From a virus: a stretch of DNA of 28,399 nucleotides. The stretch lies in the IMG/VR virus record IMGVR_UViG_3300036770_002740, positions 1-28,399 of that record; one strand, 5' to 3'. Each line of letters begins with the position of its first letter. The first letter of the stretch is position 1. Made by a program: the position numbers and the translations under genes. Shown here piece by piece: positions 186-4,402 of this stretch. The notes under the pieces are model-generated. The model was given only the letters and a program-made list of their open reading frames with translations, did not search any database and was not told where the DNA came from.

Positions 186-330
186 TTATGGTCCCCTTAT
201 ACAAAATTGGCTAAAAATAAGTTGTCAATTAGAGGGCAGGGGAATGAATGGGGCTATATAAGGCGCATTCCCTGCACCTGCTAGCTCAATGGAGCTATAT
301 GGCTTTGGGAGGGCTTCAGAGGCGTTAACA

Positions 331-917: not shown

Positions 918-1385
918 ATGTCCAGCCTAATGCCCTTAGCAACAGAGAGTGAGATAGAGAGAGCTATTGCCTCTCTTACAGCAAAGAGAGATAGGCCATT
1001 AACAGAGAAACAAACATTATTTCTCCAGCATTTGGTTGGGAATGATTTTAACATTAAGGAGGCTATGAAGGAGGCAGGGTATGGAAGACAGGATAAGGTG
1101 GGGCTTATGCGTTCCCTGCATAAGGAGATTGTGGGGCTAGCAGAGAGCTTCCTGCTCTCAAAGGCTCCAGAGGCTATTGGTGTATTGGCAGAGATAATGG
1201 TTAGTGATGAGGCTATTCCACAGGCTAATGTAAAGCTACAGGCTGCTAAGGAAGTGTTGGATAGGATAGGGATAGTGAAGAAGGAAGAGCTCAACATCTC
1301 TCATACACATTCTGGTGGTATTCTTATTCTTCCCAGCAAAAAGCCTATTGATATGAGGAGTATTGAAGAAGGGGTGTATGCCTAA
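918..1385 (+). CDS. terS: Terminase small subunit
   Basis: Encodes 155 residues that look like a phage terminase small subunit, the DNA-recognition partner that brings the viral concatemer to the packaging motor. The N-terminal segment carries the typical phrase LTEKQTLFLQHLVGNDFN (about residues 28-45) followed by an alanine-rich helix-turn-helix region (about 46-65, KEAMKEAGYG). The central part has the usual 'SKAPEAIGVLAEIM' and 'KLQAAKEVLDRIGI' helices used for oligomerisation. A GAAGGAAG ribosome-binding site lies 5-12 nt before ATG 918. Its TAA shares one base with the ATG of the large subunit (TAATG), indicating translational coupling. Only one CpG occurs in the gene. Family assignment is by motif and position, next to an unmistakable large subunit. 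Confidence 0.85.
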   Translation: MSSLMPLATESEIERAIASLTAKRDRPLTEKQTLFLQHLVGNDFNIKEAMKEAGYGRQDKVGLMRSLHKEIVGLAESFLLSKAPEAIGVLAEIMVSDEAIPQANVKLQAAKEVLDRIGIVKKEELNISHTHSGGILILPSKKPIDMRSIEEGVYA

Positions 1386-4300
1386 TGGAAGAGGAGAATA
1401 AGAAAGAGGAAGTTAAGCGTGTAGGGAAAATCCCTGTATACGCTGATATGAAGAAGGAGAGAGGGGAAGATGGGATATTGAGGTATAGTGCTGTAGACAA
1501 TGAGAAACATAAGGAAGTGTTCTTTGAAGCTGTACAGATGTATGGGGAACAGAAGCTCTCCTCAAGAAAAGCAGCAGAATATTTCTCAGCAAAGACAGGA
1601 AGGAAATGTGCGTATCAGACAATAGTTAATGCCTGGAATAAAATTAAGGATAAGGAGAGGAAGGCTAGGGGAATAGATGGGGTGGAGGATGGGAGATATG
1701 CAAAGAGGAAACATAAGGCTGCTGTAGACAGGGTGGTTTATGGGAAGGTGGAGGAAGAGAGGGAGATAGGGGGAGTGAAGGTTAGGAAGGGCACCCTCAC
1801 CCCTATTGAACGTAGAGCAATGATGATGAAGAAGATGGAGGAAAGGAAGCTAAAGATTATAGCAGAGAAGGCAGAGAGGAGAAGGAAGAAGGAAGGGAAG
1901 AAGATGAAGGATATTGTGGAGGGGAAACCCACTTCAGGGATAGTTAGTGAAGATAGGTATGCTGTACTAACAATGACCAAGGAAGCAGAGGAACTAAAGA
2001 AGATAGATGAGAAGGTGGTGTTTGTTCCTAATGATGGACCACAGACAGAGTTTCTTTCCACCCCAGAGACAGATGTGTTGTTTGGTGGAAGTGCTGGGGG
2101 AGGCAAAGTGGTTAAAGAAGGCGACAGAATCTCTACCCCATTTGGGTGGAAGCGTATTGAAGAGGTTAAAGTAGGTGATTTGGTTTCATCTGCTTCTGGA
2201 GGAGTACAGAAGATTATTCAGCTTCATCCTTGGATACAATACTCACCAACTAGAGTAAGATTTAGTGATGGAACGTTCGTTGATGTACATGAGGATCATT
2301 TATGGCAAGCATGGAGAGCTAGAAAAAGTGTTAAGAGACATGGGGAGAAAGTGTGTGGAGAGTATAGTAAGGAAGTTGTAGAGACAAGAACTCTTCGTAC
2401 ATGGCTTGATAAAGGATATAATCCACTAATCCCTGTAACACAGCCTGTTGTTTATAATACGACAACAAGAGAGAAGGATAGAATTAGTCCTTATTTACTT
2501 GGCGTATTACTTGGAGATGGCTGTATAACAACAAACCAGATTTCAATTTCTGCACATGAAGACGATCAACCACATCTCCGTAAAACACTAGATGTGTATG
2601 AGGATGATGTGGTGTACAAAAGACAGACAATTAGGTTTAGAGGGCAAACCAGAAAGTGGTTAGAAACAAAATTATCTCTACATGGACTCTTAGGAAAGAG
2701 GAGTAGCGATAAGTTTATTCCACCTTCATATCTATATGCTCCTTTAAGCGATAGGTGGGAGCTAGTTAGGGGATTGATGGATACAGATGGGTATAGCGCA
2801 CCAGATAAGAATGGATGCTACTATACAACTATATCAAAACAATTGTCAGAGGATGTGACACATTTATTACGTTCATTGGGTTGTGTTGTAACTGTATATT
2901 CTAAGCTAGGGAAGTATAGAGATAGTGATGGCGAAGTAATTGAGTGTAGCCTAGCGTATGAGTTATATATTAAAAGCAGGAAACCAGCTGATTTGTTTTC
3001 TCTTCCTAGAAAGAAAGTGTGGAATAAGGAGATAGAAATTAGTAAGAGAGTTGTTTCAGTTGAGGTAATAGAGAATGAAGTAGTTAGAGGTAGGTGTATC
3101 ACTGTTAGTGGTGTTGACGGGTTATACCTAACTAATGATTTCATTGTTACACATAATAGCCTAGCATTGTTAATTGATCCATTACGTTTTATTCATAGAC
3201 AAGCGCATAGGGCTCTCATTCTGCGTAAGTCTATGCCAGAGCTTAGAGAAATTATTGATAAGACAAGGGAGCTCTATCCCCAAGCTGTTCCGGGGTGTAA
3301 GTATAAGGAAGTTGAGAAGAGATGGGTGTTTCCTTCTGGTGCTACAGTGGAGTTTGGATATTTGGAGAGGGATGCTGACGTATATCGCTACCAAGGAAAT
3401 GCCTTTTCGTGGATTGGGTTTGACGAGCTCACCCACCTTGCCACAGAGTTTCCATGGAACTACCTTTCCTCCCGCCTTCGTACAACAGACAAGGAAATCA
3501 CCTGCTATTTGAGAGCCACCACTAACCCAGGGGGTGTAGGACACCAATGGGTTAAGGCACGCTATATTTCTCCAGCTTCTCCTGGGACAGCGTTTATTGG
3601 GAGGGATGGATTGACAAGGAGGTTTATTCCTTCTTTCCTGAAAGACAATCCCTATTTGTATAATGACGGGAATTATGAGCGTATGTTACGTTCTCTCCCA
3701 GAGGTTCAGCGTAAGAGGCTGTTAGAAGGAGATTGGGATGTTAATGAAGGAAGTGCTTTCCCAGAGTTTGATAAGCGTGTTCATGTTGTCGATGCTTTTC
3801 AGATTCCACATTCTTGGACGAGGATAAAGGCTGTAGACTATGGCTATGCTTCTCCCAGCTGTGTTCTATGGGCTGCCATTGATCCTACAGATGATACGCT
3901 TATTGTATACAGAGAGCTGTATGAGAAAGGGCTTACAGGAGAGATGTTAGCAGAGAAGATAGTGATGATGGAGATGGATGAGAAGAGGAGTATTCCGGGA
4001 GTGTTGGATACAGCAGCATGGAATAGGACAGGGTATACAGGCCCCACTATTGGAGAGATATTGAACAAGCCTCCATATAGCCTAAAGCTTCGCCCAGCAG
4101 ATAAGAATAGAATTGCTGGGAAGGTGGCTGTACACCAGAAGCTAAGAAGAAGAACATTGCCTACAGGAGAATTAGGACGCCCCAATTTACAGATATTTGG
4201 GACATGCTCCAATTTGATTAGGGAACTGCTCTCTATTCCTCTTTCAGACACTAATAGCGAGGACGTAGACACTAAGGCAGAAGACCATGCCTATGATGCT

Positions 4301-4402
4301 CTACGCTATATGGTGATGTCACGTCCTAAGCTACAACAGCCTATGCAATTCCATCACTTCCAGAATCAATGGAGGCCAGCAGATGAAGTATTCGGATATT
4401 GA
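1385..4402 (+). CDS. terL: Terminase large subunit (packaging ATPase/nuclease) with an in-frame intein
   Basis: The 1005-residue precursor should splice to a 655-residue packaging ATPase-nuclease. Walker A is split: GGSAGGGK (to Lys241), then the intein, then SLALLID from Ser592. Walker B is IGFDEL (Asp680, Glu681), and a coupling motif ATTNPGG lies at 711-717. The C-terminal RNase H-like nuclease shows likely metal ligands Asp818 (AVDYGYA), Asp875 (VLDTAAW) and Asp967/Asp971 (EDHAYDALRY). The N-terminus is unusual: about 225 residues precede the ATPase, where many large terminases have 30-60. It contains a helix-turn-helix-like stretch (about 57-90) and a highly charged Lys/Arg/Glu helix (about 125-180). 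The first base overlaps the TAA of terS, and the end overlaps the portal gene by 20 nt. ATP hydrolysis requires intein removal, because the P-loop is interrupted. Confidence 0.93.
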   Translation: MEEENKKEEVKRVGKIPVYADMKKERGEDGILRYSAVDNEKHKEVFFEAVQMYGEQKLSSRKAAEYFSAKTGRKCAYQTIVNAWNKIKDKERKARGIDGVEDGRYAKRKHKAAVDRVVYGKVEEEREIGGVKVRKGTLTPIERRAMMMKKMEERKLKIIAEKAERRRKKEGKKMKDIVEGKPTSGIVSEDRYAVLTMTKEAEELKKIDEKVVFVPNDGPQTEFLSTPETDVLFGGSAGGGKVVKEGDRISTPFGWKRIEEVKVGDLVSSASGGVQKIIQLHPWIQYSPTRVRFSDGTFVDVHEDHLWQAWRARKSVKRHGEKVCGEYSKEVVETRTLRTWLDKGYNPLIPVTQPVVYNTTTREKDRISPYLLGVLLGDGCITTNQISISAHEDDQPHLRKTLDVYEDDVVYKRQTIRFRGQTRKWLETKLSLHGLLGKRSSDKFIPPSYLYAPLSDRWELVRGLMDTDGYSAPDKNGCYYTTISKQLSEDVTHLLRSLGCVVTVYSKLGKYRDSDGEVIECSLAYELYIKSRKPADLFSLPRKKVWNKEIEISKRVVSVEVIENEVVRGRCITVSGVDGLYLTNDFIVTHNSLALLIDPLRFIHRQAHRALILRKSMPELREIIDKTRELYPQAVPGCKYKEVEKRWVFPSGATVEFGYLERDADVYRYQGNAFSWIGFDELTHLATEFPWNYLSSRLRTTDKEITCYLRATTNPGGVGHQWVKARYISPASPGTAFIGRDGLTRRFIPSFLKDNPYLYNDGNYERMLRSLPEVQRKRLLEGDWDVNEGSAFPEFDKRVHVVDAFQIPHSWTRIKAVDYGYASPSCVLWAAIDPTDDTLIVYRELYEKGLTGEMLAEKIVMMEMDEKRSIPGVLDTAAWNRTGYTGPTIGEILNKPPYSLKLRPADKNRIAGKVAVHQKLRRRTLPTGELGRPNLQIFGTCSNLIRELLSIPLSDTNSEDVDTKAEDHAYDALRYMVMSRPKLQQPMQFHHFQNQWRPADEVFGY
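2108..3157 (+). mobile_element. Class 3 intein with LAGLIDADG homing endonuclease in the terminase Walker A motif
   Basis: The 350-residue insertion (residues 242-591 of the precursor) lies exactly between Lys and Ser of GGGK|S. It starts with Val instead of Cys or Ser. It has the three residues that define class 3 inteins: Trp66 in block B (VHEDHLW, position B:12), Cys330 in block F (GRCITVSG, F:4) and Thr348 in block G (FIVTHN, G:5). It ends in His349-Asn350, followed by the +1 Ser. In class 3 inteins the block F Cys, not residue 1, attacks first. Two LAGLIDADG motifs, YLLGVLLGDG (129-138) and LVRGLMDTDG (219-228), retain the acidic residues Asp137 and Asp227, so the homing endonuclease looks intact. 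CpG content (9 in 2101-2580) is higher than in neighbouring genes, suggesting a separate origin. Confidence 0.93.

Follow-up and report, generated by a model that had tools for sequence, protein, structure and literature searches.

Evidence for a class 3 intein with a LAGLIDADG nuclease in the Walker A loop of a Pelagibacter-phage-like terminase

Class 3 inteins are defined by the triplet Trp-B:12, Cys-F:4 and Thr-G:5 (PMC5222942; PMC7891396), and 1,701 had been catalogued by 2020, 82.5% of them with LAGLIDADG nucleases (PMC7891396). The roles of their catalytic residues have been published (PMC7664689; PMC5222942), and the pathway runs through a thioester at block F, transfer to the +1 residue, Asn cyclisation and an acyl shift (PMC5222942, PMC7664689). 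Here we describe an element in the IMG/VR virus record IMGVR_UViG_3300036770_002740, all 28,399 bases of which were analysed (hereafter the window). It is very probably a mobile class 3 intein containing a homing endonuclease (HEN), which interrupts the Walker A loop of the terminase large subunit (TerL) of a podovirus-like phage, is spliced by the class 3 pathway and uses its nuclease to home into empty terL genes. An original prediction, made from the sequence alone, had proposed such an intein and implied that it was unusual. The latter does not hold, since both class 3 inteins (mostly with LAGLIDADG nucleases) and insertions between the Lys and the Ser/Thr of the TerL P-loop have already been published.

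The excerpts of Kelley et al. (2016, PMC5050341) used here give TerL as the commonest intein host in mycobacteriophages, place all the TerL inteins within the ATPase domain and include one, TerL1-a, in the P-loop at the same position (there Lys|Thr). For mycobacteriophage TerL inteins at other sites, they report demonstrated splicing and, in two cases, cleavage of the empty allele. The likeness of the window to TerL1-a, whose class is not given in these excerpts, is one of site: the window TerL is of another family (Terminase_6-like, Pelagibacter-phage-like). Its intein is only distantly related to those of mycobacteriophages (31% identity to that of the Phrappuccino terminase). The DnaB inteins Msm DnaBi1 (Protein Data Bank (PDB) entry 6bs8) and Mch DnaB1 (6rix) share with the window the Trp-Cys-Thr triplet and the catalytic His at aligned positions, together with the same fold of the splicing domain (Z about 18, 1.6-1.9 A), and Msm DnaBi1 is also inserted in a P-loop. 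Both are mini-inteins without an endonuclease, whereas the window intein has one and carries Thr48 in place of Msm Cys48. PI-SceI, the class 1 intein of the yeast vacuolar ATPase (VMA; 1lwt and others), has the same arrangement of a Hint domain with an inserted two-motif LAGLIDADG nuclease, but is only 19% identical. A search of one literature collection for inteins in Pelagibacter phages found no report.

The window intein (2108..3157, plus strand, as are all the features given below) is exactly 350 amino acids long, as predicted. It lies in frame between GGSAGGGK and SLALLIDP, that is, between the Lys and Ser of the TerL Walker A motif. Residue 1 is Val, leaving no nucleophile at this position. 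Block B contains His64-Leu65-Trp66 (2297..2305), comprising the B:10 His and the class 3 B:12 Trp; block F contains Cys330 (3095..3097; F:4), the predicted initiating nucleophile; and block G ends in Thr348-His349-Asn350 (3149..3157), followed by Ser+1. The remaining cysteines (83, 139, 237, 259 and 280) all fall outside the splicing blocks. The first LAGLIDADG motif, LLGVLLGDG, begins at residue 130 (2495..2521) and includes Asp137; the second, GLMDTDG, begins at residue 222 (2771..2791) and includes Asp225 and Asp227. Pfam detects LAGLIDADG_3 (4.6e-10) and Hom_end (6e-06), both over the cut-off. All the splicing residues named in the original prediction (Val1, Trp66, Cys330, Thr348, His349-Asn350 and Ser+1), as well as the Asp residues of both nuclease motifs, were therefore where it had placed them. 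The intein is real and well formed. Chance is excluded by the hundreds of homologues that carry a relative, the best of them at full length and in the same kind of site, and by an AlphaFold model that matches HEN-bearing inteins from end to end.

A scan of viral contigs identified at least 593 relatives of the intein, and the analysis went on with the best 80. The family set used for alignment comprises 57 distinct full-length IMG/VR sequences, including the window. His64, Trp66, Asp137, Cys330, Thr348, His349 and Asn350 are invariant (57/57), and the +1 residue is Ser or Thr throughout. Residue 1, by contrast, varies among A, V, G, I, L, M, S, C, Q and D, and no more than 5 of the 57 sequences have Ser or Cys there. 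Variation at residue 1 with a fixed Cys330 is the pattern expected if Cys330 initiates splicing. Eight relatives from cultured phages, obtained with tblastn and not picked via search peptides, all retain the Trp, the Cys and Asp225/Asp227, while the Thr (replaced once by Ser) and Asp137 are each present in seven.

Comparison with solved structures leads in the same direction. The AlphaFold model of the intein (pLDDT 95.9, pTM 0.92) aligns over its full length with PI-SceI (Z 27.3 over 337 residues). Its splicing domain has the Hint fold, matching the class 3 Msm DnaB intein 6bs8 with Z 18.4 (1.6 A, 123 residues) and 6rix with Z 18.1. In block B, His64 falls on the catalytic His and Trp66 on the class Trp of 6bs8 and 6rix (His65 and Trp67). 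For blocks F and G, alignment of the family profile with gp41-1_WCT (6riz) places the engineered Cys and Thr onto Cys330 and Thr348, putting the block F Cys at the catalytic position, as had been proposed. Residues, alignment and comparison with solved class 3 inteins thus support a class 3 identity, and the position in the P-loop and an apparently intact LAGLIDADG nuclease are likewise supported.

The distribution of the intein is sporadic. Among the nearest 80 TerL loci, 78 have the intein-free GGGKS allele that the original prediction expected in relatives, and the intein occurs in only two contigs, those of the window phage and of a second phage (L084). The relatives are inserted almost always after GK and before the Ser/Thr of an ATP-binding loop, in TerL, DnaB-like helicase or RecA; the exceptions among those examined form one TerL group (L054 and L059-L061). 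The kinship of the inteins disagrees with that of the exteins. The third-best intein match (L004, about 50%) occurs in a TerL with hardly any kinship to that of the window (30% over 102 amino acids), whereas L024, L028 and L053 have TerL exteins about 45-50% identical to those of the window but inteins of just 37-42%. The G+C content of the intein is also lower (38% against 45% in the exteins; 0.27 at third codon positions (GC3) against 0.48 and 0.41). Together, the sporadic distribution, the mismatch in kinship and the lower G+C content fit horizontal spread. In a collection of bacterial genomes the best intein relatives are just 38% identical, so that none of the host chromosomes sampled there is a recent donor. 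The ratio of nonsynonymous to synonymous substitution (dN/dS) in the HEN region is about 0.17 between the window and L084, a value that is indicative only as dS is saturated (NG86, 1.6-2.6).

The exceptional TerL group carries two kinds of mobile element in one gene (L061:875-4380, and also L059 and L054). The first is a probable group I intron (Rfam RF00028, E 1.4e-6, under the gathering score) with an HNH-like open reading frame (ORF), and splits the ATPase half. The second is a relative of the class 3 intein, whose insertion point, GQAGK|SE, is in the nuclease half further downstream, outside the P-loop.

The clearest view of mobility comes from the intein of L084 (IMG/VR 3300025687_000205, also L003), which is 71% identical to that of the window and interrupts, at the same codon, a TerL of 77% identity. 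This sister intein, unlike that of the window, has an intein-free allele in an otherwise identical background, L083 (L083/L084 are the same contigs as L164/L163). The two contigs agree at 100% for 9,925 bp on the downstream side and for 99 bp on the upstream side, and differ only in the intein and in a few bases beside it. The intein of L084, 1,044 bp long, is inserted exactly and in frame (junctions at L084:100 and L084:1145-1154). On the 5' side a single base differs, at the end of the Lys codon (AAG in L083, AAA in L084), and on the 3' side 5 of the first 10 bases differ (AGTTTTGCCC in L083, AGCTACGCGT in L084), changing Ser-Phe-Ala to Ser-Tyr-Ala. Changes clustered at the insertion fit co-conversion during homing, and would not be produced by simple precise loss. 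The pair looks like a recent homing event with a short co-conversion tract, with both alleles maybe in one sample. The recent mobility claimed in the original prediction is therefore supported for the family, and strongly for this sister, but only indirectly for the window copy, whose own plus/minus form was not seen.

The anatomy, the residue equivalences, the sporadic distribution and the sister alleles are taken from sequence and model, and from them we infer that the precursor splices by the class 3 pathway, that the nuclease cuts the empty site and that the ATPase becomes active only once splicing has taken place. In the proposed course, His64, kept in place by Thr348, would activate Cys330 at a site packed by Trp66, and Cys330 would attack the Lys-Val1 bond to form a branched thioester at block F. 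Ser+1 would then accept the N-extein, and Asn350, aided by His349, would cyclise and free the intein. An acyl shift would leave a continuous GGGKS P-loop and an active packaging ATPase. With 350 residues separating the two parts of the ATP loop, the unspliced precursor should have no ATPase activity, in line with the argument made for P-loop inteins in PMC6195587, which also cites a report that the P-loop intein in RadA disrupts the ATPase. In mixed infections, the LAGLIDADG nuclease would cut intein-free terL across the GGGK|S codons and repair would copy the intein in.

Some observations weigh against this interpretation. Conservation of Asp225/Asp227 in the IMG/VR set was considered as unbiased evidence for the nuclease and rejected as an artefact, since 56 of the 57 sequences contain the search peptide GLMDTDGY. 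An empty twin of the window phage was sought in IMG/VR viral contigs with the exact N-extein pattern, which found only the same intein-bearing phage. Finally, just 99 bp separate the upstream end of the L084 contig from the first position at which it differs from L083, which places the plus allele at the edge of an assembly.

Because of this edge, the L083/L084 difference (which does not concern the window intein) might be the product of a chimeric assembly and not a pair of natural plus and minus alleles. We consider this unlikely, though it is the alternative that survives best. The downstream identity is complete, the insertion is exact and in frame, and the flanking changes are confined to one base on the 5' side and five of the first ten on the 3' side. 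No fetched phage locus beyond L084's own contig has the 3' flank AGCTACGCGT, for which a donor was sought. Moreover, a 99-bp overhang would be expected from an assembler using k=99 if both alleles share a sample.

The original prediction also raised the possibility of a conditional switch, in which splicing regulated by redox, metal or temperature would time or pause the packaging ATPase. There is precedent: Msm DnaBi1, a class 3 P-loop intein and the only characterised redox switch of this class that the literature search turned up, is inhibited by hydrogen peroxide via a Cys48-Cys118 disulfide (PMC6195587). N-cleavage by MchDnaB1 is also inhibited by hydrogen peroxide (PMC7664689), and Cys330 is the only catalytic thiol of the window intein. 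However, this cysteine pair is not conserved in the window, where Thr48 aligns with Msm Cys48, and the other cysteines lie beyond the splicing blocks. In the excerpts of PMC5050341, five representative mycobacteriophage TerL inteins splice readily, giving mostly ligated product, and the 78 intein-free TerLs lack any such element. A regulated switch is improbable and not supported, and no observation needs one for its explanation.

Splicing by a class 2 or other non-class-3 route, with Ser+1 attacking the N-junction directly and Cys330 not acting as nucleophile, is very unlikely. Class 2 inteins likewise have no nucleophile at residue 1, and for the Bvi, Msm and Mle class 3 inteins mutation of the Cys was needed to exclude this route; but Cys F:4 proved to be required in all three of these inteins, which have the same signature (PMC5222942). 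In addition, the full Trp-Cys-Thr triplet and His-Asn are invariant through the family of the window intein. Least credible is a degenerate, non-splicing intein or a broken terL, given the open frame, the complete set of catalytic residues, the high pLDDT, the purifying selection relative to L084 and the need of the phage for TerL in packaging. Class 3-like pseudogene inteins do exist, according to the excerpt of PMC3196547 used here.

The intein-containing terL (1385..4402) is an ORF of 1005 amino acids without frameshift or stop, which would give a spliced TerL of 655. Its host protein matches Terminase_6N in Pfam and the terminase large subunit in PHROGs (5.4e-48); PHROG terminase families 36964, 19299 and 15 match the window mainly via the intein. 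The N-extein (1385..2107) ends in GGSAGGGK, the Walker A motif through its Lys, and fits the uninterrupted GGxAGGGKS of relatives. The C-extein (3158..4402) begins with Ser+1, the Walker A Ser, and holds a Walker B-like IGFDE and the nuclease half. It is 62% identical to TerL of the nearest cultured relative, Pelagibacter phage HTVC115P, which reads an uninterrupted GGAAGGGKS. The N-terminal extension of the window TerL (1385-1960) is lysine-rich, with a helix-turn-helix-like stretch at about residues 45-95 and no Pfam match. TerL of L083 has about 620 residues, and most relatives, of 559-566 residues, partly lack this extension.

A second IMG/VR contig, IMGVR_UViG_3300035670_001185, has the same terL and intein with zero base changes, which argues against a one-off assembly error. 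The two contigs are nearly identical, and over the 7.8 kb compared their differences are concentrated around a small indel and neighbouring substitutions (window 256-315), upstream of a small terminase-like ORF. This ORF (a weak Terminase_2 match) belongs to a podovirus-like structural module that also encodes TerL, an SU10-type portal, a major head protein, tail proteins (including an endosialidase-chaperone tail protein) and long ORFs of the type expected for internal virion proteins.

The window adds a class 3 intein from a Pelagibacter-phage-like TerL to a large described family and changes no concept. It provides a clean, HEN-bearing example from an uncultured virus with many empty relatives, and is also material for splicing tools. 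Intein-split TerLs are prone to mis-calling, and the example is of use in annotation. Several RefSeq phage records call the intein-bearing gene 'DarB-like antirestriction' while their GenBank twins say terminase or helicase; the former label has probably been carried over through the intein.

The part most worth following is the L083/L084 pair, a concrete substrate for the study of class 3 intein mobility. Rather speculatively, the family may now be spreading by homing among environmental podovirus-like phages, with co-conversion tracts of about ten bases and plus and minus alleles coexisting in one sample, and the wait for completion of the P-loop may slightly tune the onset of packaging. If so, a single community would show the homing of a class 3 intein in a packaging motor in real time.
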